From contig CAXKVR010000449.1 in assembly GCA_964058845.1 (NCBI GenBank), positions 51,791 to 115,790 on the forward strand: a stretch of 64,000 nt of DNA, read 5' to 3'. This document shows, in pieces, positions 14,941-59,799 of the stretch (positions within the stretch are counted from its first letter, which is position 1; each line of letters opens with the position of its first letter). Under the pieces are notes generated by a model, which was given only the letters and a program-made list of their open reading frames with translations, had not been told where the DNA came from and did not search any database. The position numbers and the translations under genes were made by a program. The stretch comes from Carex sylvatica (lineage: Eukaryota > Streptophyta > Magnoliopsida > Poales > Cyperaceae).

Positions 14941-15354
14941 GAAGCTCAGTAATAAATACCTTTAGATACATTTTATTATGTATCATTTATATATCACAGA
15001 AGGATACTATCGATTTAAAAAAAATATATTATTGTATCTTCATACGTATAGAATTTACCTTGGAAACATATTAATTCTTACATATTTAAAACTACAAAAA
15101 AGACGATGCGTGATTTTTTTTTAATATCAAATTTATATGAATGAATGATGTCTAAAAGATACTTTTTTAAAACGTTTGGTAGACCTATAATAATTTTATA
15201 AGTTATTTTTCTTATATTAGTCTAAAATAACAAATTAAGTTTATTGAATGTTCATTTTTATGTTAGATACTAAAGTAAAATATTTTCACGAATCTACGTA
15301 CTTAATATAGGAGAGATGTTAGTTTGTATGAGAATTTTTTTTGTTATCTTATAA

Positions 15355-15579
15355 TTTTAGTGCATTCATTTTTTTTAATGTTTTTTGAACGCTTGATTTT
15401 ATATTAAATTAATTCGAATGTTTAAAATTTTCACATGTAGACGCATCATTTATAAGATAAGCGGGTTCCAACGATTCAAATTTATTATTTGAAACCGATT
15501 TGATGAATTTTGAAGTTAAGCTCACTAAATACCTGCATGAGCTTACCTGGGTGAGCTTAAGAACATCCTAGTTCTACTC
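15355..15579. mobile_element. Truncated half of the GAGTAGAACTAG MITE family
   Basis: The right half of the palindromic MITE seen complete at 21512-21904 and 29728-30140, ending CCTAGTTCTACTC at 15579. The left half is missing; homology starts abruptly near 15355 at the element's centre (TTTTAGTGCATTCATTTTTT). Confidence 0.75.
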
Positions 15580-16039
15580 TCATAATTAATATTACCGTTA
15601 TATATTAAATAATGCAGATCTTCTAAAGTGCCGTACCAACAGATTTTTTCAGATAATTATTCCTTGAATTACCTGCAATCCTGCATGCACCAGCTGTTAA
15701 AAGAAAATAAAAAAGAAAATGAAGGAAATCAGCACTGACAGATTAAACCGAACCAACAAGAAGTCAAGTCATTTTGTTCATTAGCAATTACTTCAACACA
15801 CAAGAACACAAAATAGAGAACAACACACAACTGATACATGAGACCTCGACATGTACGAACGACGCCTCCTAAGACAACCATACTGATAGACACCACCAAA
15901 CTTCATCCCCGTAAAATCCCCCCCTCCCTTTAATTTCTCTTACCGCCGATCCAAAAACATCAAACCCTAAAATCTACTTGCCCCTACTTGCCCAGAATTC
16001 AGACTAAGTACCACACAACTCTAACACATAGCATAAGAG

Positions 16040-20620: not shown

Positions 20621-21511
20621 TTCCCTTCACCGCTATTTCAATTATACAATTCAAACGATATTTTTACTAACTCGAATAGTCTAAAGTTAGTGTTATTTTT
20701 AAATCACTCAAATTAGCACTATTCTGAACCGCTAATTTAAAAATCGATATTCTTGCACTAATTTTTACTTGATTCAAACGTACCCAATCAAACATGTGGG
20801 TCTCACCCAGGCCTGTAGAATGGGATATGATGGGTTTTTCACTTTAATGAGTAATTCTTTATTTACCCTGTTCGTTTGACAATTTGTGTATTATGGGATT
20901 GGAAATAAATTCTATCTCATACCCACTTTTTTTCACAAATTGATGGGAAAAAATTTATTTGCTCCAATTTTTTTTTTTCCCCACAAGCTGAAACTTCATC
21001 CTCCCTCTTTAATGCCTCTTTGAATAATTTTGATAAGTGATTATATATTGAGGAGGGATTCAATTACACAATAAATAGTAACACATCTTGACACCATATT
21101 TTTATAAGTTATTTCTGTAATTTAAAAATTCAAACAGATGATCCGAACCGTTCAACATGATCTCCATATTAAAATGTTCTTGGAGACCAAATTTTTTATC
21201 CCATCAAATCTCAACCCATATTCCTTGCATTTCTTTTGGGCTTGTCTGACACCAAGTTCCCTCGGGTCTAGATCCCCTAAAGTAACTCAACTTTTGGGTT
21301 TTGGATCGAAACCGTCCGATTTGATTCCATCGCTCGAGATCACCTTAGAATTCAAATTCGTTGCTCAAGATGTATGCGCTCCACTTCAGATGGATTATTA
21401 CGGATTCGAATCGGACGGTCCGGATTTAAAACCCAACTTTTAGGCTACTTCACTGGATGACTAGATCTAAACTTGGGTTCCCTCTCCTCGCACTGATTCG
21501 ATATCTCTCAA
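20621..21511. other. Intergenic, with a MITE fragment
   Basis: No gene recognised. Around 21138-21195 the sequence GATCCGAACCGTTCAACATG followed by CTTGGAGACCAAATTTT is one half of the palindromic MITE core seen at 34370, 55702 and 61020. Confidence 0.5.
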
Positions 21512-21904
21512 GAGTAGAACTAGAGTGTTCTTAAGCTCACCAAAGTATTTGGTGAGCTTAACTCTAAAACTCAACAAATCGGTTTCAAATGACGAATCCG
21601 AACCGTTGGAACCCGCCTACCTTACGAGTGATGCGTCTACATGTGAAAATTTTAAATATTCGAATTAATTTAGTATAAAGTCAATCGGTCAAAATTAGAA
21701 TGTTAATAAATTAATTTTAGTGCATTCATTTTTTTAACGTTTTTTGACTGCTTGACTTTATATTAAATTAATTCGAATGTTTAAAATTTTCACATGTAGA
21801 CGCAATTTCAACAGTTCGATTTCGTCATTTAAAATCGATTTGATGGATTTTGGAGTTAAGCTCACCAAACACCTTGGTGAGCTTAAGAACACCCAGTTCT
21901 ACTC
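21512..21904. mobile_element. Mutator-type palindromic MITE, GAGTAGAACTAG family
   Basis: 393 bp that fold back almost completely: GAGTAGAACTAGAGTGTTC at the left and GAGTAGAACTGGGTGTTC inverted at the right. A perfect 9-bp duplication ATCTCTCAA is found at 21503-21511 and 21905-21913. Second copies at 15355-15579 (half) and 29728-30140. Confidence 0.93.
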
Positions 21905-23353: not shown

Positions 23354-26067
23354 TGTCACACCCCGCGGCCACGGGTCACGACAGTCCTCCGCCGTAAGCA
23401 TACAACTCCGCGTACGCTTACAAGGCGGTTCACATTTCAATCACCAATTCACAACACAATAATATGAAAACTAAGTTCATAAATATATGAATTAGAGTAC
23501 ACAGTTTGGTCAGACTTTAATACATCAAAAGTATCTCATCTGGATACTAACTATAAGGCCTACCCTAAAGCTATACAACAAGATATATATAATTATCTAT
23601 GGTCATTTAAGGGTATACTACTAAATGCCTACTAGTTGCGTGCCTCTCCGGAATCAGTCGCACCAGAACCTGTAAAATATCTCGAAGGGTGGGGGTGAGA
23701 ATAAATTCTCAGTGCAAATTTGCCACAGTTTAGATTATTGGATTTGCAATCAAAATCCATATTAAAAAATGAAACCCCAACAATAGCAGTTCAAACAGAT
23801 ACATAGTCATAAATAAAAGAATGCAAATGCTCGACAATAATCAAATCAAATGAATCACAGTTAACGGAATTTTCAAAATGAAGTTCAAAGAAACAAACAC
23901 ACATGTTTGGCTTAAGTCATTTATTAGGGCTTGTAGCAACTACAAATGTTCTTTCGAGCTGGACCCTTTATCTGACCCTAGTCTGTAGGGTTACTGACAC
24001 CTACAGACGTTCCACAAAGCTGGACCCTTTATCTGATACCCATCTGTAATCGCTTGGCTTAACCATTTTCTTAGGTCTGGTTCGAATCATATAAAGAAAA
24101 TTTACTTTGAAATCATTCCAATTGTCATAATAGTCAATTGACCGTCCAAACGCATTAACACGTAGGAGAATGTCACCGAGCCACAGACATTACACATGTC
24201 ACCCACGATCACAATCACAATCACAATCAATATCAATACAATCATTCACCCCTCCTCCCAACCAGTATTGGGAAACCATGAGGGTCGTTCACCTAAAGCG
24301 CTAGAAGGATCTGGGATCAAAGTCAGCTATCACAGCTCAACTTTGCAAATTCGTTGGATCCAAGTCAGCTATCACAGCTCAACTTCGTAAATCCACACAC
24401 ATACACATTCTCAATCATCCGTTTGTGGTGACTCTCAACCATAATCAGATCATAACAGATCGACACAACCAACAATCATACCAATATGCAAATCATTCAA
24501 GTCAATTCAATTCGAGTTTAATTTGATTTGGGCTATGCAAATAATTTACGCAATTCAATGATGCAAATAATCAGATATTCAACATGACAAACGAATAAAC
24601 AGTATAATTCCTGAAAATGAAATATCAAACAAGTCCAAGAATTCCACACCTGTGTATGACGAGCGTATTGTGCAATTACGGATCAGACGTCTCGAAATGT
24701 CCCTCAAATTCTTGCTCGACCGAGCATACACCTATATTACACGTATACTTGGCTTAATATTGGTTTAATGGTCGAGATACTTACTCGAGTTCATTTAATG
24801 TCTTACACATTCCTTAACCAATTCCTATGCTTTAGTATTGATTCTTTTGAATCTTTCTTTCCTACTCAAAATTCCTAAAACTCCACACATTTACATCTAG
24901 GTCCTTTAAACCATATACAATTTTCATTTGGTAACAGTTCATGCACCGGTTCTCTATTTTTGGTTCCCGTAACAATTCAGTTTACCGATTGATTAACCCT
25001 AATTTGATCGAAATCTCAAATTAACCGTTACACGTTCTAGCATTTCAGGATCAAGAGGTAACCCTACCGATTACAAGTCTAATTGGTTAGATTAAACTAA
25101 TCAATTAACGATTATGCTCACTTTTGGTTTTGGCATAAAACCCTAAAAGTCGAAATTCAAAATTGAGGTGGAATCGAGAAAAGATTCGACAAATAACAAT
25201 CAAAGAAGCTCAAGGGGCTAGCCTATAAGCAATTCAAACACAAATCTAAGGTTTAAAATAAAAACCCAAGCAATCGAGAAAATTCGAGGTTTTGAGAGAG
25301 AATAGGAGAGAAAGGAATACCGAATGGGAGGGCTAGACGAGATCTACGACTAATTTCTCACTTCTACCTTCGATTTCCCGGTCCTTGGGGCGATTTGGAG
25401 GAAGAGAGAGCGCTCTCTCTCTTTTCTTCTCTCTTTGGGCGGAGCTCACAGAAAAACGGGGAAGGGGGTGGAGGGGAAAGAGAGAAAAAAAAATCTAAGT
25501 TTTGGTTAAAAGACATCCTGAGTGCGGACGCACTCCAATTCAGTGCGGGTCGGTCACCCGCACTCAGTACTTGATAAAATTTCGGCAGTTCGAAACAACA
25601 CAGAAAAATACTCCAGTGCGGACGCACTCAATACTTAGTCAAATTTTCATGAAAATGACACTGAACAAGAAAAAGTCCGAGCCTAATGCGTCCGCATTAA
25701 ATTTCAGTGCGGGTCAAGACACCCGCACTCAGAATTTGTCAGATTTCAAAAAATTTCAGTCAATACAGAAATTGAGTCAGTGCGGATCATTCATCCGCAC
25801 TCCGCACTAGTGTGGACGCACTAGAAGAATTTCATAAAACCTTTTAAAGAAAAACAGGATCTAGTGCGGATCGGTCATCCAAAACTTCGTATTTCCGACG
25901 CGGTTTTGATTCTTAGCTAACTCGGGACGTATTTTAAAGTCAACATTAGACTTACTTATCAAGGGAAATATTATTTTAAAATTTAAATTTTTAGTTCGTC
26001 AGCACGATTTTCGATTCTTGCTTTTAAAACATTTAAAAATTAATTGTAAAAATTTTGTAACGTAACA
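23354..26067. mobile_element. Solo LTR, probably of a Gypsy-type retrotransposon
   Basis: 2714 bp bounded by TGTCACACCCCG and CGTAACA (TG...CA). The 5-bp flanks AAAAT (23349-23353) and ATAAT (26068-26072) differ by one base. The neighbouring undamaged copy of the same 177-bp unit shows the empty site, which supports the borders. No gag-pol frame is present. Its length and TGTCACACCCC start suggest a long-LTR Gypsy lineage such as Tekay/Del; that is inference. Within it, 25515-25880 carries many GTGCGGACGCACT words. Confidence 0.78.
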
Positions 26068-27232: not shown

Positions 27233-27837
27233 GGGGGAATTTCACGTATACCCCTCAAAAACTTCAAAATTACTTATTTTCCCCTTCAAAATTTGAAATT
27301 ACATCCTCTAAACTTCAAAAACTCACAAATTTATCCATTTTATTGTCTTTTATAATAAAGCACATTCTAAATTTACAAAATATCCATTTTTATCCTTTCA
27401 TTAAAAGCATAAAACGCTCATCTGACTAAAATTTAATTCTGAAGGGTTCTTCTACCGTCTGAATTACTTTAAGATCCGTGCACGCTATATCATCACGAAT
27501 CTTGAAGCGAACACGCACATATAATTATGCAACATGCATAGATCTTAATGCAATGCGCACGGATCAAAATTGCCTTAAGATTCGTGCACGCTAAATCAGC
27601 ATGAATCTTGAAGTGAACACACACTGATATTGAAGCGACGCGCACATATCTTAATGGGATGCACACGGATCGGACGATAGAGGAACATTCAGATTCAAAT
27701 TAAGTCTAACGAGACGTTTTATACTTTTAATAAAGGATAAGATTGGTATTTTTTTAAGTTTAGATGAGTTTTAATATAAAAGACAATAAAATGGGTAAAT
27801 TTGTAAATTTTTGATGGGTATATGTGAAATTCCCCTC
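27233..27837. mobile_element. Mutator-type MITE with long inverted arms
   Basis: Left end GGGGGAATTTCACGTATACC; right end inverted GAGGGGAATTTCACATATAC. Arms of about 190 bp flank a central region with GATTCGTGCACGCTA words and their inverses. Flanks ATATTTATC (27224-27232) and AAATTTATC (27838-27846) match 8 of 9. Same architecture as 12770-13443 but different sequence. Confidence 0.72.
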
Positions 27838-27958
27838 AAATTTATCTTAAACATGCAAAACTTTCAAATTAAAAAAAAATCGATTGTGATCGGAGAGGAG
27901 AATCTTGGTCGCTAAAAGAAGGCATATTGAAAAAAAAAATATAAACTATCAGATTTGA

Positions 27959-28273
27959 GGTGAATTTTTTATTGGTAGTAATTAATAGAAGAGAATTGAG
28001 AGAAATAGAAAGAGTACAGCTATTTTTTAATTGGTAGTAAAATTGGTATGAATAGTATCAATTCAAACTTTGATTTGTTTTAATTAAGTTGCAAAAAAAA
28101 AAGTTTAGATCGGTATGAACAGTACTAATTTAAACTTTGGTCTGCTTAATTAAGTTGCAAAAAAAAAAAAATAGATCAGTATGAATAGTACCGATTTTAC
28201 TACCCATTAAAAAAGGTTGTACTCTTTTTGTTTTTCTCTCTTCTTTTCTATTAATTACTACCAGTAAAAAATT
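27959..28273. repeat. Terminal MITE-like module, left tip of the palindrome
   Basis: Starts TTTTTATTGGTAGTAATTAA and ends with its inverse near 28271. The middle repeats TTAATTAAGTTGCAAAAAAA followed by GATCGGTATGAACAGTA twice. Its own right flank does not repeat the left flank, so it is not an independent insertion. Confidence 0.7.
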
Positions 28274-28370
28274 TCTGCCTTAGGCACTAGTACCGCTTTC
28301 TTGAGTTTTGACACCGGATGATGTTGCTTCAGCGGTTTCAGGTTAAATTTTAATATTAACCTGTCTCAAA

Positions 28371-29685
28371 TAGTGGTTTGCTAACACCCGCCAGGGACAG
28401 CCCGTGCCCGGTCCGCCTGTGCCCGCTGCCCGAGTATACACGGGTACACGGGTACGGGTATTAAACGGGCCGGGCACAGTTTTTGAGGCAAAACCCCGCA
28501 TGTACCCGGACTGAAATGTACCCGTGCCCTTCATGCCCGTGCCCGTACACATGTACCCGTGCCCGTGCCCATGATACCCTTTTTTTTTTTTTAAATTCAA
28601 AACTTAAACCAAATTTCCCCCCAAATTCATTTTTTTTTCTTCAAATTTCTTGTGACTGCACATGTGTATATATATGTATATCCAAGTAAATCTTCATTTA
28701 TGATTACAAATAAATATTTTCCTTCAAATCTTAAGCTAAATTTCAAGCTTTATATTTATTTCATACATAAAAGTTATTATAATTAGTGTATAATTATATG
28801 AAGTTTAACATCATTTTTCTTGATGCAAACATGGAGTTAAAATAGAAAATATAATTTAGTGTCTAATTAATTTATTAATAAAAGTTGTCATTTTAGTTTA
28901 AACTTGACTAATCTGAGTTTCTGATGAAAAAAATGACTTATAAGCATATATGCTCATATGCTTATGTAAGTGGAGTAGTCAACCTCTATATTATATATAC
29001 ATATACATATACGGTTCAGATCGACTTTTAAAGTAATTGATTTAAGTAACATTGTTTTAAAATAATTAGTAATTTTGATTTATAAAATATATTATCAATT
29101 TAAAATGAACGTTTAGAAAATATATTATCAATTTAAAATGTAAACTAAAAATTTTGAGATATAAATAAATTATAAAACTATATAATTAGAATGAGAATTT
29201 GAAACTAAAATAAAATGACTCGTTTAAAGAAATAAATAAATACATTTGTACATAGCCGAATAAACATACAAATTTTTGCAAGAATAATTTTTATATATAA
29301 GTTACAAATTTTATTTATTTAGAAATTATAATGATGTGACTTGATAATTTTATGTGTATATATATACACTATTTAATATTAAACTATTCATATTTTAAAA
29401 GTTGAATTATAAACACGTAATAATATTCGTACAACACTGTAAAAAAACAAAAACAAAAATAAAAAAAATAAAAAAATAAAAAACAGAAAAAAAAATCCGG
29501 ACCGCCCTGTCCCCCGCGGGTATAACGGGCACGAGTATAAGACTTTTTGAAAGAAAAAAAAACCGCGATGCCAGGCCCGTGGTACCCGTATACCCATATA
29601 CCCGCCGTGCTCGTGCCCGTGCCTACCCGTACCCATCCCCGGGTATGCCCGGCCCATCCGTGCCCTGTCCGTGATCCAAACACTA
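28371..29685. mobile_element. Non-autonomous hAT element with CCCGTGCCCG subterminal words
   Basis: Termini TAGTGGTTTGCTAACACCC and, inverted, TAGTGTTTGGATCACGG. Perfect 8-bp duplication GTCTCAAA at 28363-28370 and 29686-29693. The opposite arm of the GEX1 palindrome (near 33661-33680, inverted) has GTCTCAAA once, the empty site. Both ends are packed with CCCGTGCCCG/CGGGTACCCGTG words. The interior is AT-rich and non-coding. Confidence 0.93.
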
Positions 29686-29727
29686 GTCTCAAAACAATAA
29701 TACTATTAAAAAATGATATAAGAATAA

Positions 29728-30140
29728 GAGTAGAACTAGGGTGTTCTTAAGCTCACCAAAGTGTTTGGTGAGCTTAACTCCAAAATCCATCAAATCGATT
29801 TCAAATGACGAATCCGAGCCATTGGAACCCGCCTACCTTACGAGTGATGTGTTTACATGTGAAAATTTTAAACATTCGAATTAATTTAGTATAAAGTCAA
29901 TTGGTCAAAATTACAAGGTTAATAAATTAATTTTAGTGCATTCATTTTTTGAACGTTTTTTGACCGCTTGACTTTATACTAAACTAATTCGAATGTTTAA
30001 AATTTTCACATGTAGACACATCACTCGTAAGGTATGCGGATTTCAACGGTTCGGATTCGTCATTTAAAATCAATTTGATAGATTTCGGAGTTAAGTTCAC
30101 CAAACACTTTAGTGAGCTTAAGAACACCCTAGTTCTACTC
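29728..30140. mobile_element. Mutator-type palindromic MITE, GAGTAGAACTAG family
   Basis: 413 bp; ends GAGTAGAACTAGGGTGTTC and its exact inverse. Perfect 9-bp duplication TAAGAATAA at 29719-29727 and 30141-30149. Inserted in the left arm of the GEX1 palindrome only. Confidence 0.95.
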
Positions 30141-30221
30141 TAAGAATAAAAACAAAATTAGCTAAGTAGCAAATCACTGTTAGCAGCAAGCCAGCAGCTA
30201 CATCCAATAAAAAACTAAATT

Positions 30222-30401
30222 ATGATGAAATATTCCAATCTCCAGACTCCTAATCCCAAGCAGCTAATAAGTGAAATTAAGATGATGAAATATTCCAATC
30301 TCCAGACTCCTAATCCCAAGCAGCTAATAAGTGAAATTAAGATGATGAAATATTTCAATCTCCAGACTCCTAATCCCAAGCAGCTAATAAGTGAAATTAA
30401 G
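30222..30401. repeat. 60-bp tandem repeat, three copies
   Basis: ATGATGAAATATTCCAATCT starts at 30222, 30282 and (with one change) 30342. The opposite arm at 33541-33600 has a single copy, so the triplication arose after the inverted duplication. It lies just 3' of the GEX1 stop in the left copy. Confidence 0.95.
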
Positions 30402-30437
30402 CGAGGTCGGACTTGTAAAATTAAAAATTAAACATTC

Positions 30438-31107
30438 TCAGCTTTCAGAATTAATGTATGTATGTTTATGTTTGGCTAATTGAGACGGAAGAGACCTTAG
30501 ATTATATGAACTAGTAACCGAGGTCGGAGTTTTAAAATTTTCTTTGACTTCCTCGAAAAAGACATAGTTCGGATCGAGTTTGCTGTCTACTTTCTCTGGC
30601 AACTCCTCGGAGCGCCAAGAACAACCAAGAAGGGTATCATCATTCTCTTCTTGAGAAATCACACAAAAAATAACTCAATTAATTGTTCTAACAAATCAAG
30701 AATTATGATAGAACAGACAAGTTAAAAACCATCAAAAAGGCTCATAAAAGGTTAAAGGAATTTGTACCTGAAGATTCTTTAATAACTCCAGCTTTGTCAA
30801 CCAAGGTCTGGACCAATTGATTGTTCATTTGGAGCATTTGGTTATTTAATATTTCATAATCCCTAAAACAAATCGTTAAAAGATAACTTGAATGCTGTAT
30901 CATGATTTTTCTTAAAAGACCTGTACCAATTCAATGTGTAAAATGAATGGGAACACACTTACTTAAATGTAAACACAGTATATAAGATTTGAATGATGAC
31001 AGCTAACAAAAATATTGATCTCACCCAACTAATATCTACAACTATCCATCTTTTTTTGTCATCTCCATATATAATTCCTAACTCAACTACAACAGCAATA
31101 CAGAGCT
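30438..31107 (-). pseudogene. GEX1: GEX1 (gamete expressed 1 / Brambleberry) 3' exons, left-arm copy
   Basis: Three exons join in frame: 31107-30963, 30862-30768 and 30649-30438. They encode a membrane stretch with WVRSIFLLAVIIQILYTVFT, then YEILNNQMLQMNNQLVQTLV, then the acidic tail with EENDDTLLGCSWRSEELPE and PNYVFFEEVKENFKTP, ending in a TGA. This matches the C-terminal part of GEX1, the plant nuclear-envelope protein needed for nuclear fusion in gametes and embryos. All frames are open and the donor and acceptor sites are usable (the last acceptor is CTCAAG after a small deletion). The upstream exons are absent because the palindrome loop begins at 31205. About 150 C-terminal codons only; a fragment, unless joined to a new 5' exon. 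Confidence 0.78.
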
Positions 31108-31204
31108 CTACAAGAAAAAGGATCAAATCAGTTACATTATACATGGTTCTTCAAAGCAAGACTATAATTATAGATTTCCACCCATATGACACTCAAAGTT
31201 CAGT

Positions 31205-32200
31205 GATGTCTCGTTATTTGATCTATATTTCGACTAAATTTTGTATCAAAACCTGTGTCTTATACCACCAAATCGTGTCTATTTCATTGAATATCTATAG
31301 AATGTGGTACTGCTGTGCTTTTCCTCTTATTTTGCCAAAAACAGACAAAATCAGGAAAGATTGTGGAATCTGAAGATCTTCACGCGGGCCGCGTCACATC
31401 CAAAGTGGGATGCATTAACCTGAACCGACCACTGACGCGACCACTCATCATCCACACGAGAGACACAGGATCGCGGGCCGCACCACACCCTACGTGGGCT
31501 GCGTCAGTCTTTTTCGGAATCAGAACAGAATTGAAAACAGAGGCCAATTGAAGGAAGGTCGGCCAGAAATGCTATAATATGAGATATCTTGCTACAGAGA
31601 ATTCATTCTGGATATTCTGGAGCAAAGAAGAGGATTCTAGGGCTTGGACTTGGCGGCTAAGCTTGAAGACGAAGTTGAGAAGTGAAAGACACAAATTTTC
31701 GACAGATCTTCTTTGTTCTTCGGGTTTTGTCATGAACAATTCTTTTATCACTTGTTTTATTTACTTTAGAACTATGTCTGAGTAGATCTTTTAGTTTCTA
31801 GGGTTGTGATGTAATCAAATATTTTATTTTACATGTTAGTTATTGGATTTTTGTGTTGAAATTTGTATTTGTTTGATTGTGTTTGATTTTAATTGCTTAG
31901 ATTAAATTATTTGATTTATATTGATTTATCACTAAATGCATGGCCACTTCTAGAAAGTACCTGGCTTTTATAATCTCTCAACCAAACTAAGTACATGAGT
32001 TAGAATTAGTTATCCGAAAGGTGAAACCAAGTAGTAGTCGAAAGGTAAACATTTTCTCTTATCGACGGATAAGAGGCTACCTCTAGTATACTAAACAAGT
32101 AACTAGGTAATTCAGACTAACATACGACAGTTGAGTTTTAGAACCTGACGATGACACATATTGCAATTCCAGCAATCATAAAAGTAATTGAAGGTTAATT
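31205..32200. other. Palindrome loop with LTR-like sequence
   Basis: No homology to the arms. It includes GC-rich CGCGGGCCGCGTCACATCC and CGCGGGCCGCACCACACCC phrases (31385-31510). Near 31680-31810 it has CTATGTCTGAGTAGATC and CTAGGGTTGTGATGTAA, a style seen in plant LTRs. No frames of a known family and no clear borders or target duplication; a retrotransposon fragment is the best guess. Confidence 0.4.
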
Positions 32201-32323
32201 TTGTATTAGTGTATGGATTAATAGTTGTCAAGCACAGCATTATATTCCACGGAAGTTTCTCTTCCATGTCACACGTAGTGAACTATGATGATTTTAAAAA
32301 ACTAAGCTATTTCTCGCATGCAG

Positions 32324-33430
32324 GAGAAATTTGGACAGAACCAGGAACTTATTTTCTCGAATTTAGATAAGTTGTTTAAAGTGTTGCATGCCATCTTGAT
32401 GGAATCTCGGTCTTACAAATCAATATTGTACTATTGCTGCATCATTTTTATTCTCTCCAAGCTAACAGATGTAAAGCAAACGTATGCAATTCGAGGCCAG
32501 ATCTTCTTTGGTAAACTTTTGGTATATGATACAAGTGGCCAGAATTTAGTTTATGGTGCACTTTTTTATTAAAAATATTTGAGCCGATAAATAATATTCT
32601 AAGGTTTTCGGGTCATGTTACTACCATGAGTGGTACATACCAGAGAATTTGTTTGGTTCTTGTTGATCCTAGTTGAAGTGAATTATTATCATGGTCAATT
32701 TTAAAAACTGTAAATTGGTATTATGTATTTGCTGAACTTTGGGTGTCATATGAGTGGAAATCTATAATTATAGTCTTGCTTTGAAGAACCATGTATTATG
32801 TAACTGATTTGATCCTTTTTCTTGTAAAGCTCTGTATTGCTGTTGTAGTTGAGTTAGAAATTATATACGGAGAGGACAAAAAAAGATGGATAGTGTTAGA
32901 TATTAGTTGGGTGAGATCAATATTTTTGTTAGCTGTCATCATTCAAATCTTATATATACTGCGTTTATATTCAAGTAAGTGTGTTTTTATTCATTTTACA
33001 CATTGAATTGGTACAGGTGTTTTAAGAAAAATCATGATACAGCATTCAAGTTATCTTTTAACGATTTATTTTAGGAATTATGAAATATTAAACAACTAAA
33101 TGCTCAAGATAAACAATCAATTGATCCAGACCTTGGTTGACAAAGTTGGAGTCATTAAAGAATCTTCAGGTACAAATTTCTTTAACCTTTTATGAGTCTT
33201 TTGATGGTTTCTAACTTGTCTGTTCTATCATAATTCTTGATTTGTTAGAACAATTAATTGAGTCATTTTTTGTGTGATTTCTCATTTGTAGAAGAGAATG
33301 ATGATACCCTTCTTGGTTGTTCTTGACGCTCCGAGGAGTTGCCAGAGGAAGTAGACAGCAAACTCGATCCGAACTATGTCTTTTCCGAGAAAGTCAAAGA
33401 AAATTTTAAAACTCCGACCTTGTTTAATTA
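32324..33430 (+). pseudogene. GEX1: GEX1 3' exons, right-arm copy with one extra upstream exon, broken
   Basis: An exon at 32324-32510 (after acceptor GCATGCAG) encodes LFKVLHAILMESRSYKSILY and DVKQTYAIRGQIFF, matching the GEX1 membrane region just before the arm. The next exon (32828-32974) lacks its acceptor: TGTAG in the left copy is TGTAA here. It also has a 2-bp TA insertion that shifts the frame. The following exon (33075-33169) has CAA changed to TAA. The last exon (from 33292) has TGG changed to TGA at 33324-33326 and another early stop. It shares the left copy's 3' flank. Clearly non-functional as protein. Confidence 0.8.
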
Positions 33431-33757
33431 CTAGTTCATATAATCTTAGGTCTCTCCCGTCTCGATTAGCCAAACATAAACGTACGTACATTAATTCTGA
33501 AACTGAGAATGTTTAATTTTTAATTTTACAATTCCGACCTCACTTAATTTCACTTATTAGCTGCTCGGGATTAGGAGTCTGGAGATTGAAATATTTCATC
33601 ATAATTTAGTTTTTTATTGGATGTAGGTGCTTATTTCATTTTTTAATAATATTATTATTTTGAGACAGGTTAATATTAAAATTTAACTTGAAACTGCTGA
33701 AGCAACATTATCCGGTGTCAAAACTCAAGAAAGCAGTACTGGTGCGCGCTTAGGACG

Positions 33758-34074
33758 AAAATTTTCTCTTGGTAGTAATTAATAGAAAAGAAGAGAGAGA
33801 AACAGAAAGAGTACAATTTTTTTATGGGTATTAAGATCAGTACTGTTTATACCGATCTAACCTTTTTTTTTTTTGCAACTTAATTAAACAGACTAAAGTT
33901 TGAATCTATACTGTTCATACCAATCTAAACTTTTTTTTTTTTGCAACTTAATTAAAACATATCAAAGTTTGAATCGGTACTGTTCATACCGATCTTACTA
34001 TCAATTAAAAAATAGTTATACTCTTTCTGCTTCTCTCTCTTCTTTTCTATTAATTACTATCAATAAAAAATTTC
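33758..34074. repeat. Terminal MITE-like module, right tip of the palindrome
   Basis: Inverted counterpart of 27959-28273, with the same GCAACTTAATTAAA and TACTGTTCATACCGATCT phrases. It ends in AAAAAATTTC directly before the 9-bp flank CAGATTTGA. Confidence 0.7.
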
Positions 34075-34369
34075 CAGATTTGAGCGACGGGCAGTACAGA
34101 TTTTCTGTGGTGGAATTTTTTAGAGCAGGAGAGGATAAAGATGTATTTTCAAGAGAAGCCGAGAAAGTAAGGAGTTGGCGAAATGCAGGGACGGAATTTA
34201 AATTAAGTTGAGATTGAAGGTCAATAAATTACTATTTAGTAATTTTATTTTATGAGGGAGCTAATATTTTTTTTGTAAAAAAACAAAATATTTCTTTTAA
34301 TTCGAACCGATGACCTATAGACTATAGTGTTACATAATTCACAACTATTTATTCATTTGAGGACTAGTA

Positions 34370-34755
34370 GGGTTAAAATGCATCATTGATTTTGTGTCTC
34401 AATTATACTTCATGTCTCTATCTCTATTTACAAAGTTTAAACAGTTGATCCGAACCATTCATCTTGTTCGACATATTAAAATGTGCTTAGAGACCAAATT
34501 TTATATTTTTTTGAACTTTTTTACTATTTTTTTAGATAGGTACAAAATCACTGCATTTGGACCATACAGAAACAGTGATTTTGTATCTATCTAAAAAATA
34601 GTAAAAAAGTTTCAAAAAATATAAAATTTGGTATCTAAGCACATTTTAATATGTAGAACAAGATGAATAGTTCGGATTGACTGTTTGAACTTTATAAACG
34701 GAGATAGAAACGTAAAATATAATTGAGACACAAAACTAATGATACATTTTAACCC
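34370..34755. mobile_element. Palindromic MITE, GGGTTAAAATG ends
   Basis: GGGTTAAAATGCATCATTGA at the left and GGGTTAAAATGTATCATTAG inverted at the right; nearly the whole 386 bp folds back. The core TTAGAGACCAAATTTTATAT is shared with other palindromic MITEs in the window. No clean target duplication could be read. Confidence 0.75.
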
Positions 34756-36882
34756 TTGTTGACTTCAACACAGATAGAAACTCGAAAAATCACATGGATA
34801 CTCGGACACGCCTGGTGTCGGATCCAAACTGAGAATTAATGGATTGTAATTGCAAATTTTGTCTAGGGGCGCGTTATGGATCTATTAAATTGGGCTAACG
34901 CCTTTTTTAAGTCGTCACTCCTTAAGGCCGGTGAATCTCTCCTTCGACTCATTGAACTCGAAATCGGACGGAAATTTCGAGTTCTAATCATCTAAAGTAA
35001 CTCGAAAATTGAGTTTAAACTCTGACCGTTCGTTCCTTTTTAAATTCTTATCAGACGGTCCCCATTCAAACTTAGGATCCAAACCGGTGATCTCGCCTCC
35101 ATGATACCTAACCTAAATTAAGTGCCTACTTCAGACAATTTTTACATCACTGACAAATTGTTGCTTCAAATTCTCAAATGAAATGCCCTTGCAAAAGGAA
35201 GAAGATACACATCCACAAGAAGCACAACTTAACGAACAAGGTTGGTGTTTCTACTAATTAATTAATAGATCTCTCTTTTGATGACAAGGTAACCTCTAAC
35301 ATTAATTTTAACATGTGCCTTTCAAACAGTTACATGTTCTACAAAAAGTGTAGTTGATTCGGTGGTTGAGGAACTAAAAAAAAAAATCAATTAAAATAGA
35401 TTATTTAAGGAGTTCAAATTTAGCCATCACTTTTCTGTAGTTTCATGTAGTACAACTTACTACAACAACTTAATATTTAATTGCTCATGTACAGGGAATT
35501 TCTATATGTTGGATTCAATTATTCCTTATGAAAATACTTCAGATATTGTAGAATACTATAATTTATTAGAGGTATAGTACTTTGGATTACTAGAAATAAC
35601 CATCCGTGCTGTTGTTGGTTTATATTGTGTAAGAAGATTGTAGCTTATATCTCCTCATGTGTGGTGTGGAGAGCAACTAGATATCGCTGCTATCCATATT
35701 TAATTTTAGGTCCTAGTTTTTTTTTCTTAAAAAAAATCTTGTAGTATATATCTAAATGTTGGTAGGTTATGTTGGACTGAAAAGGTGACTTGGAAGGGGT
35801 TAAATATGTCAACTAGTTCAAATTTGCTTTCCTTTGTTTTGCTTTTTAAGGGACCAACCTTTAATTTTTTTTTTTTTTTTTTTGAAGAAGAAGAAGAAGA
35901 AGAAACGTGGAGGTCTAGCCTCCCGATTCCATTAAACAGGACATCAAAGATGTCAAATATACAAAGTTTAGAAAGAAAAAATAAAGGAAAAGAAAAAAAT
36001 ATGACCAACCTGTGAGTTTAAATTTTCTTTCTTTTATTTTGTTTTTTAAGGGACCAACCTTAAAGTTTAAATTTGCTTTCTTTTCTTTTTTTTTCTTTTC
36101 TTTTGTTTTTTATTAAAAAAATATTGATTTTTCATTTTTTTTCATTAATTCAAAGAGATTGTATATTTTTTTCCTGTCTTGCAGGAATTATATATATATA
36201 TATATAACAGTTTCACTTCAGTTAATGATGAAGAATGTACTTTTAAGGTTAAAAGCTTTTTAAAAATTAATAATCTCTTAAAAAAAATTCAATTTGAAGG
36301 AGGAAAATCATCAGTTTCATTAGCTTGTATTATTTAATTTGCAAAATTTATTATTTAATATCTTCTTATTGATTTATTATTTGCTTGGTCAAAAGAGATC
36401 GTTAACTTGACACTTATTTAAACTTCTTTGCTTGTTTTTTAAGGTACTGTATAACCATTGACCTTTATATGTGATGGGTTTGGTTGAAAACCTAAAAAAG
36501 CATGCGTAGGGTACAACTTTGTACCCACCCTGATGCTGATATATAAAGTTTTCATAGGCTGATGATATGTTTTACGTGATTTTTGACTTCTGACATCCTA
36601 CCGGTTAATTTGACTTTATGATACAACTTTCCCTTTTAAAAAAAATTTCATTTTTTTTGTTTCTGTTTTTAACACATGGTTAAAATATTAAATTTTAAAG
36701 TACAAAACTCAGATTAAATGCACGGAAATTGGAACGAATTCGTTCCTGATTTTGTGCATTCTGTACTTGAAAAAAAAAATTCAATGCCTTTCTTTTGTCC
36801 AAACGCATGCATCTAAATAAATCCAGCTTGTTTTGATTAATTTTTTTTCTTTTAAAGAAACTAAAATAAATATGTTTGCAAT
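34756..36882. other. Intergenic, no gene seen
   Basis: Contains a long T run followed by (GAA)7 at 35884-35904, duplicated phrases AGGGACCAACCTTTAA (35850, 36050) and an (AT)n stretch near 36190. No protein family recognised. Confidence 0.45.
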
Positions 36883-40993: not shown

Positions 40994-43900
40994 TAGGGCC
41001 GCACAGAAAGCTCGTAGCTCGTGGATCGCTTGCGACTCGCCGCTAGCTCGCTCGCTAACAGCTCGTTCGATAGTGGATCGAGCTGTTAACGAGCCAGCTC
41101 GGCTCAGGTTCGGATCAAAATAAACAAGTTGAGTTAGAAATCAGCACAGACCAAGCCAGTTCAGCTTGGCCCATAAAGGCCCATATAATTTTAGGTCAAG
41201 TGTCATTTTCAAACAGCGGCGAATTTGAATCTTTCACTCCCGACTCCTCTAAGTCCTCTTCACAGTTTCACTCCTCGTCCTCGACTCCTCGTCCTCGACT
41301 CCTCTTCACGACTTCACTCTCCTAGGTTAAATCTTGACTTGGCGACTCCCGAGTACTCCATCGGACAACAGACTCGCGTCGCCTCACGCAGTCGCAACGC
41401 CTCTTGTAATCGCGCCGCCTCACGACGCCTCTTGCAATCGCGTCGCCTCGCATAGTCGCGCCGCCTCGCATCTGATCCGAACTCGCGTTGTCATTGTAGC
41501 TAAGTAAGGGTTGAAGGTTTTTTTCTGATTTTTTTTTTTGATAAATGACGATTTGTTGATTTAGTGAATTAGCTTTGTTCTTGGCTTCTTGCAGATGATT
41601 ATATAAAATGATTTTACATTGTCATTTTTTCTGATTCTTCTGTTCAAATTATCATTTTTTCTAGTCAGAGGGTTTGGATTTTGCAAACAAATTGCTCTTT
41701 TTTTGTTGTTTCTTTATGCGGCACATACTATGTACAATTGTTTGGCATTAATCGAACTTTGCTGGTACTGTTGCTGGTACAATTGTTTCAAGCAATATAT
41801 GCAGCAACATTTACAATGACAGAAATATATAGCTTTTGCTGTTAGGTTTTTGCATTTTAATCAAGTATATATTCTCATGTTTTCTTCTTATAAGCATGAA
41901 TTTAAATCACAGGAGCTGCATGGATTAATTTTCTGAATTTATTTTCCTTTTTTAATTGAAAAGCAGAAATGTACTTGTTACATTTAAAATAATTTTTTTT
42001 CACTTTTTATTGTAAATATTCTTCTTATTATTTGCATCTATAACTTTCAGCTAGCTTTGACTAATATTTGTGAGCTTTGATTAATAGGCACAAATGTCGA
42101 ATACATCATCTGATGGTGCTACTGCAGCCGGCAGTAATCCAGTGATGCCGGAAAGTGCAAATAGCACAGCTAGTGCACATGCATCAGGTTCCAATACAAA
42201 TGAGGCTGGTCGGACTAAAAGGAAAAAAACTTCTGATGGTTGGGAGTATTTCAAGCTAATTGATGGTACTAATAAGGCTGAGTGTCAATACTGTAAGAAG
42301 CGCTATAAATTAGCGAAAGGTGGAACAACCTCAACATTGTTGCGTCATGTGAAGAAATGTTCCAAAATTAAGAGATTTAAAAGGTAATGATTCTGGTATG
42401 CTCCATTTAGATGACTCTGTGCTTACATCTGTAAAAGAGAGGGAGGGGGTGGACACGGGTATCGTAGATTATGGGAAGTATGAACATGCAAAAAGTAGGG
42501 AGTTACTTGCTAAGACCCTAATTTGTCATGAGTTGCCGTTCATGTTTACCAAATACCATCGGATGAACATATTCTTGAATTATTGCAATCCGTATTATCA
42601 AACAGTGAGTAGGACCACTATTAAAAAAGAGTGTCTAAAAGTGTATGAGAATGAGAAAGGCAATGTTAAAAAGGTTTTCCAAATTGTTGATAGGATTTCA
42701 ATTACTAGTGATTGCTGGACTTCCAATCAAACCATTGGTTATATGTGTTTAACGACACATTACATAGATAAGTCATGGAAGTTGCAAAAGTTGATAATTA
42801 GCTTTAACGAGTTGTCACCACCTCACAGTGGTGAAGCAATAGCCGATGCAATTGTGGAATCATTAGGAAAGTGGGGCATTCAGGATAAGGTTGAAACTAT
42901 AACTTTAGACAATACCGGTAACAATGATAGGGCAGCAACTATTTTGAAGTTGAATTTTGGTGCTCGAAATAAGTTGCATTTCAAAGGGTTTTTTTTTCAT
43001 ATTAGATGTTGTGCACATATCTTGAATTTGGTTGTTCAAGATGGACTTAGCAAGATTGATAAATGTCTGACCAAAATTAGAGAAGGGGTTAAGTACCTTA
43101 AGAAGTCGCCGGGTCGGCTTCTAAAATTTGGGGAACATGCTAAGCGGATAGGTATAATCACATCTCGATCTTTGTGCATTGATGTCAAAACAAGGTGGAA
43201 CTCAACTCACCGAATGCTTCAATCAGCCCTTTATTACAAAATGCCTTTAATGGCTATGCTGATCGAGATTCTAGTTTTAGTGAGTGGCTTCCCAATGATT
43301 CTGAATGGGACAAGACAGAAAAAGTTTGTAAATTACTTGAGGTTTTTGTCCAAGCCACAAAGATTTTTTTGGGCACATCTTACCCCACCTCAAATTTGTT
43401 TTTAGATGAGATGCTCAATGTGAAGAAGGCAATATGCGATGCCTACTTTGATGAGGATGATTTCACACGAGAGATGAGCTTTGCCATGTACACAAAGTTT
43501 GAGAAATATTGGGGGAAAGTTAATGTGTTAATGGCAATGGCTGCCATTCTTGATCCAAGATTGAAGACCCTCTCAATTAAGTTCTGTTATAAGAGGTGTA
43601 CCCTGAAGTTGAGGTTGATTCGCGTGTTAATGATGTGTTGGAAAAGATGCGAGCTATATACGAGATTTATGCGAATGAGCATACGAACTCTACTCCATCG
43701 AGTAAATACTTGAACTTTTTAAATGTTAATTTTGCATTGTTTAAAGTTTTACTTTTTTAATGTTAATCCTTGAAATTTTACTGATAGGTTCCGGTGCTTC
43801 ATCTAGTGTTGTCAGTGGTAATGAGGATACTGATATGTGGCGTTTTGTACAATCCACATGGAATGAAAAACAATCTACTTCAGATCTGGAAAACTATCTA

Positions 43901-48619: not shown

Positions 48620-51104
48620 ATGGGTCCAGAAGTTAGTTTCCTCAAGAGAGTTCGCCGGATCGAGCCGAGAAATTTCACCGTCGGCTTATTGCTCGGATGT
48701 TTTGTCGTGGCGTTTGCGTATTTCTTCACGACAAAGTTTGATAGCTTCCATTTCTATGCAGGTTAGTTAACAATTTCTACTGTGATTTGCTCCAATTTTG
48801 CCACTTTGGTTTGTTAAAGTTTCTTTGTTTTTTCCTGTTCTTGTTTTTGCTCGTTTGTTTTTCTTGTGCTTGTGATTGATGTTTCTCTCTTCAATTGGTA
48901 CAATTGTGAGTAATTTCTTTTAATTTGGATTTGGTACACTGACCACACTCTAAATAGTTTTTGTTTCTCTTTCAAACTCTCTCTTTATTGTTTTTCTCAG
49001 TACACTCTGCGTCAACGAAGATTGTAGCTACTCCAAGCGGAGACATGTTGCCAACAATGGTGAGCTCAGATCAAGTAGGTATGTATAAGACACCAAAACA
49101 AAAAAATCTATTATTACCAGAATAACGGTACGTAGTCCTATTTGCGACATTGGAAATAGTTCTGGTATGTAGTTAATTTCTACTTATGCAATGGCATAAT
49201 ACGAAATTGTCTTTGTGATCCCCTGAAACAAGACCTGTTTGCTCATCAATTTTCAATTTTGATATGAATTACGTAAACTTTTCTAATTGAAATACATGGT
49301 GACATGGTTAAAGTAAAAATAGATTAAAACATTGTGGTATTAGCGCTATATCAGGAAAGTTGAATGTCCAACAAACAAATGAACCGGTAATGGTTGTCAC
49401 ATGACACATGGGTCCCAATAGTGACTGAGACACATCATATGATTCATGCTGTCATCTAAGTAATTTCATAATTGCAACTTATTTTTCATTACTGAAAGTT
49501 TCCTTTTTATTTATTATTTCTTTTTTTTTATAATTTGCAAGGTATAATTACAAAACCTAAACCAAAGAAAGAAAACAGGAAGCAAGTGCCATTATGTGAC
49601 CTCTCCCAAAAAAGAATTGACAAGTGCGAAATTGAAGGAGACGTGAGGATCATAGGAAGAAACGGCACTATAGTGTGGGTCCCATCACCAGACTCAGATG
49701 ATGGTCCAGATTACGAGAGGAAAGTATGGCATATCAAGCCATACCCTAGGAAAGAGGATAAAGCGGCAATGGACCAGGTGCGTATGGTCACAGTGAAACC
49801 AATGGATATAGATGAAGCCCCAGCTTGCACAAATTACAGTGACGTGCCGGTTATTGTGTTCTCCGATAGCGGGTATACAATATTATTTGATTAGAATTAT
49901 GGTTTTGCAATCCCATATATTGGTTGTAATCCTAACCTTGTCGTGTCATTTCAGGTACAGTGGGAACTACTTCCATGACTACACTGACGTGCTGGTCCCG
50001 TTATTTACAACCGCTCAAAGGTTCCAAGGGGAAGTTCTATTTCATGTGACGGATCTTAAGATCTATTGGATTGGCAAGTTCCTTCCAGTATTCAAGAATC
50101 TTACAAAATATGACCTTATTAACTTCGATTGTGACGAAGAAGTCCGGTGCTATAAAAAGGTTTATATTGGCCTCACGACTCATGATGCTTTCGATATCGA
50201 TCCTGAAAGAATTCCCGAAAAATACACATTGGAGGATTTTACAAGATTTATGCGCACAGCTTACGATCTCAAGAGAGACACAGCCGAAATCCCTATACAG
50301 AAAACATTGCGAAGGAAGCCAAGGTTGTTGATTTTTGCTAGAGCAAAAACAAGGAGGTTTTTGAACCTAGATGATATTGTTCATGAAGCCGAGAGATTAG
50401 GGTTTGAAGTGGTGGCCACTGAGGCGACTTATAGATTGGACCGAGTTTCTCTCGATGTGAATTCATGCGATGCGATAATGGGCGTGCATGGTGCCGGGTT
50501 GAGTAATATGGTGTTCTTACCTGTTAATGCGGTATTCATTCAAATCCTCCCTTGGGGTGACCTCGAGTGGGTTGGTAAGTTATTATAACTTTTGTTCCAA
50601 CAAATGTTGTACCCAATAAGCTATTAATTTGTGATCCATGTCTAATAAGTTAGAAGTCCAGTATCCAACAGGTCTTTCCCAAATAGAAATCCATTTCAAG
50701 CCCAAAATGTAGAAACATAATGTACTGAAAACTTATTGTATCAGTCCAGTAGCCCAAAGTATCATTTTCTGTATCTATGGGGAAAAGAAGAATTGTGAAT
50801 TACGAATGAGATAATAAATTGTCCATAAAAATAAAATGCAGGGAACTATTTCAGGAGGCCAGTTGAGAAAATGAAGCTGAAGTACCTGCAGTATTTTGTC
50901 TCACCAGAAGAGAGCTCTTTAATAGATGAGTATCCAAGAAATCACACGATTTTTACTGACCCACAATCTGTACACCGTAAAGGGTGGGATGCAATCAATG
51001 AGATTTTTCTTCAGAAGCAAAGTGTGAGGTTAAACATATCTAGGTTTAGACCTACTCTGCAGGAAGCTTTAAAGCATCTCAATGCAGAGGATCCATTAAT
51101 TTAA
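48620..51104 (+). CDS. Glycosyltransferase family 61 protein, Golgi type II membrane
   Basis: Five exons join in frame: 48620-48761, 49001-49078, 49542-49872, 49955-50574 and 50842-51104, giving 477 codons. Residues 19-41 are one membrane segment (FTVGLLLGCFVVAFAYFF) after a basic start, the layout of a Golgi type II enzyme. The GT61 (DUF563) domain starts near VPLCDLS and contains GNYFHDYTDVLVPLF, KPRLLIFARAKTRR, the hallmark VHGAGLSNMVFLP, QILPWGDLEWVG and the tail RFRPTLQEALKHL. GT61 enzymes add arabinose or xylose to xylan, or xylose to N-glycans. The membrane start and the tail fit the xylan-decorating clade (XAT/XYXT/MUCI21), but the donor sugar cannot be read from sequence. Its neighbour at 52785 is a paralogue in convergent orientation. 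Confidence 0.93.
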
Positions 51105-52784: not shown

Positions 52785-55266
52785 TTATCTTAGTAATTCC
52801 AATGCTCTTGTCAGAGTAGGTTTGAATCTTGTTATATTAAGTTTTACATTTTGTTGGAGCAGATAAATCTTGCTCATCGCTGCCCATCCCTGTCTTCTGA
52901 TCGATTCAGGATCCGTAAACACCGCATGATCTCTTGGATATAGATCAATCAATGTGCTCTCTTCTTTGCTTATACTGTACTGCAGGTAACTCAGCATCAT
53001 ATTCCTTGCTGCCTCCCCGAAATCATGCTCTGATATCTTCTCGAGATTCCCGAAAGGAACTATTTGAATTAGCACTGCATTTGTCGGGAGAAAAACTTCA
53101 TTGGTTAGCCCTGCACCATGCACCCCCATCATCACATCAAATGAATTCACCATTCTTGCAAACTCACCAACATTAGTACGAAAAGAGGAATCGCTGACAA
53201 CAACCTCAAATCCCAACTCTTCTGCCACGGTCACAATTTCGCCAACATTTGTCATTTTTCGAGTGTGATTCCTTGCTATTATCAAAAGCCTTGGCTTCTT
53301 CTTACTACCCCCTGCCAGATTTATTGCGAAATTTCTTTCGAGCAAATAGGCCCTTCTAATTAGCCTAGCAAAATCTACCATTGAGTAATTATGCGGTGTT
53401 CTAGAAGGGTCCATTGTAAGTTCACCGTGGCTATAGAGCCCGACAATGACACGAGGGTAGCAGTGCACATTGTTTTCTTTGTTGAAATCTATGATTTCAT
53501 AATTCGATAGTTTGTCCAGGACCTCTTTGTATTTCCGAATCCACCAAAGGTTCATGTCAGCTACGAGCATTTGAACTTCACCTTCAAATTGTCGGGCAGT
53601 TATAAACAGCGGGATCAGCACATCACTGAAGTCATGAAAGAAGTTCCCTGTGTAACCTGCTGATGCAAATACAATTGCAGTGATGTTGTGATCTACGTTG
53701 CATTTAGGGGACTCTGTGGAAGCATAGAGGGGCCTTATGGTCACCTCTCGCACATTTTTCATTATGAAAACATCAAATTTGCGAGTGTATGGTCGAATTT
53801 GCCATGTTTTGTTTGCTTCCAAGTGCATGGTCTCGTCAGAAGTGAACAATATGGAAGATGAATTCCCATGAATTCTTACATTGCTGTAGATTTCGCATAC
53901 TGCTGATCTAAAGTTTTTAAGGTCACATGACAGAATCGGTGTGGTTTTTGAATTCTTTCCCTCGTTACCTTTTTGACATAAATTGAAACAAACTAATATT
54001 AAAAAACAAAGAAGCTTCAAATTCCACAATTTCTGATATACTATTTCATTTATATATAATTGATTTAGTGCATTAAAACCTCAGTTTCGATTGAACCGAA
54101 TAGGAAAATTAATAGTCAACCAAATATGGTGATATTTCAATGTGCAATATGGCTGTTATTAACTGATTTTTCTGAGCAAGAAAGAAAACTTCTAGTTAGT
54201 GATCATATGAGTTATGACTATGACATATCTCCTTGTCGAATACAAAATAATGCCAATTAAGATTTAGCCTGGTGATGAGATTATCTAATTTGACCAACCC
54301 GACCTGACTCTAGATTAGACTGTCTAAATAGTGGTAATTTGAGACCGATTATCTAATATGCAATTATATAGATGCTGCAAAAACTCAAAGAAATCCAGTG
54401 TATCCCTATTTAATTGCAAAATCACGCATTAATCTTTCTTATTACCCTTTTACAGTTTTACTGCTATGGAATCCAATATTGTTGCTTTTGTGAAAAACGC
54501 ATGATATAGTAAACACTGGTGCACATATGCATGGTAGTTTATAAACGTGAAGATTGATGAATAGTTTACTTTAGTAAAGTATTGCTATTGCTCCTGTGGA
54601 GAACACTTAAATCGAGTTTCCTTGTTAGATACCTGTAGTTGCTGAAATTATGTAATCATTTTCTAGCGCACTCGAATTTTGCACATCCAATCCCACTGTC
54701 AGGAGAACAGAAAACAAACAAAAATCATGACACTAAGCCAAAATATAAAAGTACGTAGAAGAAGAAATAAATTAATAAAGAATACAAAAATCATGACACT
54801 AAACTAGAATATAAACATATAGAAATAATTAATATTAATAAAGAGATAAAAAAGAAGAAGCAGCAGACAATATGAATAATTTCTATCAATGATATCTATG
54901 TGGTCATTAATTACCAACGCCACCGCAATAAAGAATTTTCGCAAATAGAATTGAAAATTATAAATATTAAGAAGATTTGGACACTGAAACTATACCCTTT
55001 TCTCACTGGAAATGGGATGTAACTGCAAAAAAATAATAGGAATGCACCTTTTCACAAGCCACATATAGCAAGTGTACTGTTTCAAAGAATGTAAATTATA
55101 TAGTCTAGACATTATCAGTACACCAATTACCAGATCTGACAGGGGCAGTTAATGGAAATGAGATAGGAGAATGATAGAAATGCACCAAAGAGACAAGAAA
55201 ACAAGCAACAAAGAGACTACTGATCATCTCCCCGACACTCCTAGCCCACTTCATCTGGTACCCCAT
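52785..55266 (-). CDS. Glycosyltransferase family 61 protein, paralogue
   Basis: Three exons on the minus strand join in frame: 55266-55131, 54695-54633 and 53968-52785, giving 460 codons. Exon 1 encodes the basic start and a membrane segment (SLFVACFLVSLVHFY). The large last exon carries the whole GT61 domain: ILSCDLKNFRSAVCEIY, GNFFHDFSDVLIPLF, KKPRLLIIARNHTRK, VHGAGLTNEVFLP, QIVPFGNLEKIS and KPTLTRALELL. The Met at 54029 opens a longer frame, but it lies in intron 2; the upstream exons with clean GT-AG borders restore the membrane anchor. It has lost the two introns that split the domain in the partner gene. Probable Golgi xylan-modifying enzyme by family; substrate unknown. Confidence 0.9.
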
Positions 55267-59040: not shown

Positions 59041-59799
59041 CAATGTGGAAAATATTCAAGTAAATTTCTAAACACCAAAAAGAGAATCATAAGAATAAAG
59101 GTACCACAAAATCTTGATTATTTATTATATGTAATGTGTTACAGAGACTAGGGTAACGAGTCAAGAATATATATTAAATTGACCCGCCATATGAAACAAA
59201 ATAGATATGCAAGAATCAAATCTGACCCGCCATATGTGTGACAGCCTGGCTTTCCTTCACAAACAAAAAACTTAAAAGGCCTCCGATAAAATTATGATGC
59301 ACAGTATCCACTATCCACCTTCAAGTCTCACTTGAAAGAACATTAGGTGAGAAAGATGATTGCAAGGTGCTACGTACCTCTCCTCTAGGAGAAATGGTTC
59401 CAAAAATTAGTACAATTAACAAAGACAAACAGACCTAGAAAGTTTTGGATGCTACTAACCTCCAATGTCACGGTGCTACTCGCATAGGCCTAACTCTTTT
59501 GTTGTGACATGGAAACAATCCAGCAGTAAGGTGAATAGATTCAAGAAAAGAAATCAAAGGCGAAATTTACGGGAGGAGTCAGATATATACTTATGTATCT
59601 TTTGTTTTAATAGATATATACTTATGTATCTTTTGTTTTAATTAATTTTATAAATTTAAATGACAAAATAAATTTATAAGATATAATCTATCATTATTTT
59701 TGGATGCATGCATGTAAGACATATATATAATAACATTTCGAACTTTTTTGATAAAAAGAATCAATAACTTTATAATTTAACGTCCAAAAAAATTATCCG

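Follow-up and report, generated by a model that had tools for sequence, protein, structure and literature searches.

Mirrored GEX1 exons in a palindromic, probably Pack-MULE-like element of Carex sylvatica

The stretch of the Carex sylvatica genome analysed here (64,000 nucleotides of contig CAXKVR010000449.1, positions 51,791 to 115,790 of the forward strand; hereafter the window) contains at 27959-34074 a palindromic element made of two inverted arms, both of which carry the last three exons of GEX1 facing outward, and each of which is capped by a 317-bp self-complementary module (Table 1). In self-comparison, 32732-33602 aligns in inverted orientation with 31203-30342 at 93.5% identity and 33659-34072 with 28370-27963 at 87% identity, in agreement with the first-pass annotation of the window, which had proposed inverted arms sharing the 3' exons of GEX1. 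If the two inserts nested in the left arm are disregarded, 53 of the 1003 sites aligned between the arms differ (5.3%); a fold-back artefact of assembly is disfavoured by this divergence and by the presence of unique inserts in one arm. The left arm has three copies (98-100% identical) of a 60-bp unit (30222-30401) of which the right arm has one. Once later inserts are excluded, a loop of about 0.56 kb remains and the arms and tips constitute most of the element, as in foldback elements. The window has six open reading frames (ORFs) of at least 150 amino acids (aa) from stop to stop, none of them inside the element.

When the exons of the left arm and loop were translated and used as a doubled query, three proteins among 5781 candidates matched at E <= 0.001: gamete expressed protein 1 of Carex rostrata (64%), a GEX1-named protein of Rhynchospora breviuscula (58%) and GEX1 of Dendrobium catenatum (41%). 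The best two come from sedges, which points to a host probably in or near Cyperaceae. A tblastn search with the Carex GEX1 protein (P0001) mapped aa 447-574 to the left arm and aa 447-568 to the right; a fourth, upstream exon (aa 379-446) lies in the right half only, within the loop, and the protein upstream of aa 379 had no match in the window. The exon matches of the left arm are free of stops, and those of the right arm contain two stops in frame, along with a 2-bp change in the length of exon sequence; genome-wide protein matches that extend past the exons have stops on both sides, and a complete GEX1 cannot be made from either side. The Pfam search with the GEX1 fragment returned only a domain of unknown function, below its cut-off. 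According to the available portion of a published account, GEX1 is a nuclear-membrane protein needed for nuclear fusion (PMC7586128), and the earlier description of it as a gamete-fusion gene is corrected accordingly.

Directly outside the two outer tips, at zero shift, the element as a whole is flanked by an exact 9-bp target-site duplication (TSD), CAGATTTGA, whose only + strand occurrences in the window are at 27950 and 34075, with one more on the opposite strand, at 59216. From base composition, the probability that fixed ends match exactly over 9 bp is 1.1e-5, or 2.7e-4 if a 2-base shift is allowed at each end; among 420 mismatched flank pairs taken from family members of the tips, with shifts of +-6 permitted at both ends, none matched at 9/9 and seven matched at 8/9. 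Scored singly, the left tip gave 5/9 and the right tip 6/9, the commonest values of this null set, and thus neither has a TSD of its own. Since the duplication is found at the outer tips only, the palindrome, rather than its tips separately, appears from these flanks to have transposed as a single unit, as the first-pass annotation had held. The inner borders of the tips also resemble each other at 8/9 (AAAAATTTC/AAAATTTTC), a match that was considered as a TSD and dropped because the letters are the AT-rich inner ends of the tips themselves.

The modules at both tips had been called similar to miniature inverted-repeat transposable elements (MITEs), and a search of the assembly recovered their family. 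Each tip is 317 bp long with self-complementary ends (fold z-score of the left tip -17.6 over 100 shuffles), the two tips align over 316 bp at 87% identity when one is inverted and 73% when both are read directly, and the junction of tip and arm falls at the same place in both halves within about 15 bp. All 31 candidates in the genome search were scored and 28 loci were taken for ends; both ends could be recognised in 20 of them, at a spacing of 0.36-0.72 kb, and eight are single-ended as cut. One of these loci, L044, is a free element of about 390 bp, 82-87% identical to the tips, with a TSD (GTATAAAGG, 9/9 once the set right end is moved by 2 bp); through this free copy, the tip module is a MITE, being short and non-coding, with terminal inverted repeats (TIRs) and a TSD of its own. 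A tree was built from 25 ends, drawn from 12 family loci and the window; in it, the outer ends of both tips cluster with one end of L044 (support 90/87) and their inner ends with the other (91/89).

A larger member of the family, on contig C140 (304086-310494, within locus L077, 303800-310900), is 6.4 kb long and has 415-bp TIRs that are 97% identical, with CTCTTTGTTG repeated at its ends. The ends of the tips match its TIR ends at 83-87% over 86-103 bp, and its ORFs on one strand encode PF10551 (3e-13) and SWIM domains above the cut-off and PF03108 and PF00872 below it. Judged by these domain matches, the tips are ends of a Mutator-like element (MULE) family that has a putative transposase-bearing member, and the mobiliser would be of Mutator type, which accords with the first-pass prediction. 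Among 21 other copies (the 20 two-ended loci and the C140 element), terminal duplications were found at 9/9 in three and at 8/9 in eight, some of the latter being of low complexity; thus, 11/21 reach at least 8/9, compared with 7/420 mismatched pairs. Of eight extended loci from an end-profile scan (L077-L084, L078 overlapping L077), only the C140 element has a 9/9 end pair; L084 pairs at 6/9. The scan also found a weak family-like pair within the window, at 45374 and 48315, with 8/9 flanks, which may be due to chance. The opposite strand of the C140 element has two ORFs with a plant mobile domain (PMD), which bears on how PMD genes travel with MULEs.

Although unit movement was borne out, the 6.1 kb previously given as the size of the moving unit includes about 2.7 kb of later inserts (a hAT-like element, a MITE and a repeat in the loop), and the unit that moved was therefore about 3.4 kb. 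The insert in the outer left arm is probably hAT-like, to judge from the length of its TSD and its end sequence; its insertion site, GTCTCAAA, is single in the right arm, which therefore represents the empty site. The nested palindromic MITE has many relatives, those of full length and like orientation being 91-93% identical among the matches listed; further copies lie in the window at 21510-21904 (88%) and 15352-15589 (79%). The loop repeat is found in at least 39 other places at 74-84% identity (best 40 of 293 candidates), and has the same 5' end as other copies, whose mutual alignments span 1.07 to 1.44 kb and continue past its 3' end. Left-arm homology ends exactly at the 5' end of this repeat, and the simplest reading is that the repeat inserted in the left arm and that a deletion then took its 3' end together with the inner part of the arm. 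Classification of the loop repeat as a solo long terminal repeat was not adopted: copies elsewhere run past its 3' end, and no flanking TSD was seen by eye.

Just to the right of the element is another palindromic stretch (34357-34768, with 176-nt arms that are 87% complementary), and to its left is an inverted-repeat stretch (27234-27835). Elsewhere in the window, the ORFs at 43183-43710, 49812-50588 and 52785-54080 comprise one with a hAT transposase domain and two of glycosyltransferase family 61 on opposite strands.

Table 1. Features of the palindromic element and its flanks, in window coordinates
Feature	Position	Strand	Remarks
Left TSD CAGATTTGA	27950..27958		Directly outside left tip, 9/9 match
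Left tip, 317-bp self-complementary MULE-end/MITE module	27959..28275	+	
Left arm (contains two nested inserts)	28276..31203	-	Last three GEX1 exons and outward flank, reading outward (leftward)
Later insert, hAT-like (probable)	28371..29685	.	8-bp TSD GTCTCAAA (28363-28370, 29686-29693); similar end sequences
Later palindromic MITE	29728..30140	.	9-bp TSD TAAGAATAA (29719-29727, 30141-30149)
Left-arm GEX1 last-exon match	30495..30656	-	aa 521-574 of P0001, tblastn
Left-arm GEX1 exon match	30769..30873	-	aa 495-522 of P0001, tblastn
Left-arm GEX1 exon match	30962..31108	-	aa 447-498 of P0001, tblastn
Loop repeat, high-copy	31204..32171	+	5' end intact; 3' end shorter than in longer copies
Loop GEX1 upstream match, right side only	32306..32509	+	aa 379-446 of P0001, tblastn
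Right arm	32732..33757	+	Same GEX1 exons and flank, reading outward (rightward)
Right-arm GEX1 match, intron between	32827..33168	+	aa 447-522 of P0001, tblastn
Right-arm GEX1 last-exon match	33291..33428	+	aa 523-568 of P0001, tblastn
Right tip, left-tip module inverted, 12% diverged	33758..34074	-	
Right TSD CAGATTTGA	34075..34083		Directly outside right tip, 9/9 match

The 9-bp TSD and the possession of ends in common with a transposase-encoding element are features of MULEs, and the presence of a host gene fragment with no transposase encoded is that of Pack-MULEs (reportedly the subject of Jiang et al. 2004). With Pack-MULEs the element shares its non-autonomous nature, the 9-bp TSD, a host gene fragment with introns and the lack of a transposase, whereas the cargo of Pack-MULEs is found once between the TIRs and that of the Carex element is an inverted pair, one copy per arm. 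The label is limited to Pack-MULE-like because the assembly, which looks incomplete, yielded no parental full-length GEX1. MULEs with multiple TIRs, in the available portion of the report on them (PMC3310237), likewise have more than one TIR at their ends, a TSD at the outermost ends only and, in some cases, gene cargo; in the Carex element the inner tip ends match the end family and the separate tips have no TSD. The extra TIRs described there are mostly in tandem, whereas here the second terminus is inverted relative to the outer one and faces inward, making the tip palindromic. The Tm1 Mutator/Foldback family, as far as the available part of its description goes (PMC3169594), also has complex foldback-like inverted ends, mostly 9-bp TSDs, and both MITE-like and transposase-bearing members, but it is a Phantom-type family of root-knot nematodes with TIRs mostly of short tandem repeats and no captured plant gene. 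Although the structure had been considered unusual, both the acquisition of sequence within extended TIRs of MULEs and the occurrence of additional TIRs in MULEs have been described already, again in the available portion of PMC3310237, and the present element is therefore a variant rather than an exception. It differs in that the second terminus at each end faces inward and the cargo is mirrored. No report linking GEX1 with a Pack-MULE was found in the literature searched, and no description of this structure was found among the titles and opening lines of abstracts listed on palindromes, gene capture, composites, hairpins, small interfering RNA and alternative transposition.

On balance, the element is probably a non-autonomous, Pack-MULE-like and foldback-like MULE that originated by duplication of an end module together with a piece of GEX1. 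An end module belonging to the local MULE family, and found as a free MITE too, would have adjoined the 3' end of a GEX1 copy. An inverted copy of the module with about 1 kb or more of GEX1 would then have been made, gap repair or conversion on a stem-loop being the simplest means, to give the order module-GEX1-loop-GEX1-module. A MULE transposase acting in trans may have used the outer end of each module, so that the unit of about 3.4 kb inserted with the 9-bp duplication CAGATTTGA. The hAT-like element, the MITE and the high-copy repeat would have entered afterwards, and a deletion next to the loop repeat probably trimmed the inner portion of the left arm. Duplication of one module with its GEX1 neighbour is favoured by the matching position of the tip-arm junction in the two halves and by the grouping of the tip ends with those of L044 in the tree.

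Several observations weigh against this origin. The tips differ at 38 of 313 sites (12.1%) and the arms at only 5.3% (Fisher p = 1e-4), whereas joint duplication predicts equal values; conversion between the arms or faster decay of the tips could explain the difference. The right tip resembles L044 (86-87%) no less than it does the left tip (87%), and its outer end has higher identity with one end of another family locus, L048 (89-91%), than with the left tip (85%); the two tips may thus be distinct members of the family. The forks of the tree have moderate support and are unstarred. Ten of the 21 other family copies lack a terminal duplication of 8/9 or better. The joined flanks, as a query for an empty site, matched only the two flanks in the window and a 59-bp piece on contig C45 of this seemingly incomplete assembly. 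Arm sequence was found in the assembly only at this locus and in two short pieces on contig C499 (all three candidates scored), and as far as this search shows the unit is single in the assembly; a separate genome search for such copies, in which the best 40 of 2236 candidates were scored, says nothing alone about rarity. The search for a donor was similarly unsuccessful: no intact GEX1 was found by protein searches of the same assembly, which recovered the window and one N-terminal piece on contig C828. Plants have about nine MCM genes, and as a gauge of completeness MCM matches were found at four multi-hit loci and on two single-hit contigs, whence the assembly looks incomplete. The C499 pieces include a degenerate, intron-containing GEX1 fragment (locus L043, about 27855-28058), and the C828 piece is an N-terminal exon piece (L085, about 24165-24410); no further part of the gene was found next to either, 2 kb of C828 having been examined.

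A serious rival, if a good deal less probable than joint duplication, is that the two end modules of a Pack-MULE were separate and older, and that GEX1 was later added to both arms or homogenised between them by TIR extension; transposition would still have involved the entire unit, and the difference concerns only where the tips came from. This would account for tips that are 2.3 times more diverged than the arms and for the affinities of the right tip to L044 and L048, and the acquisition of sequence within extended TIRs is stated in section 4.2 of PMC3310237, in the portion available. It fits less well with tips that are both 317 bp long, in inverted register and joined to the arms at the same junction, or with the C140 TIR, which resembles the tips over about 100 bp only.

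Other explanations dispense with transposition of the palindrome. If the locus were a rearranged remnant of a resident GEX1 gene rather than a captured copy, the lack of a full GEX1 elsewhere would be explained, the assembly having no other locus with these exons and fragments only on C499 and C828; such an origin is very improbable, given the TSD outside both arms, the absence from the window of matches to GEX1 upstream of aa 379, and the apparent incompleteness of the assembly. Still harder to credit is the separate insertion of two MITEs into a pre-existing genomic inverted duplication of the GEX1 fragment, with the outer 9-bp repeat arising by chance: stand-alone MITEs of the tip family do exist, but the single tips score only 5/9 and 6/9, both tips are at the same position relative to the arms, and the chance of an exact outer match is about 1e-5.

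How MULEs and other DNA transposons gain gene sequence is unsettled; for Pack-CACTA elements, the available portion of one account describes aberrant excision of neighbouring elements and allows that further mechanisms may be undiscovered (PMC13317346). The palindrome retains readable joints, namely a tip-arm junction at the same place in both halves, an asymmetric loop and a step in divergence between tips and arms, and complete assemblies of C. sylvatica and its relatives could therefore help to choose between models of capture. The mirrored exons of a reproduction gene would be a natural candidate source of hairpin-derived small RNA. A rather doubtful possibility is that a complete MITE and a gene end, duplicated inversely, became both ends of a new composite transposon, the mirrored exons of which may be transcribed as a hairpin that yields small RNAs against GEX1; if true, this would provide a route from a cut-down MITE to a gene-carrying foldback element.

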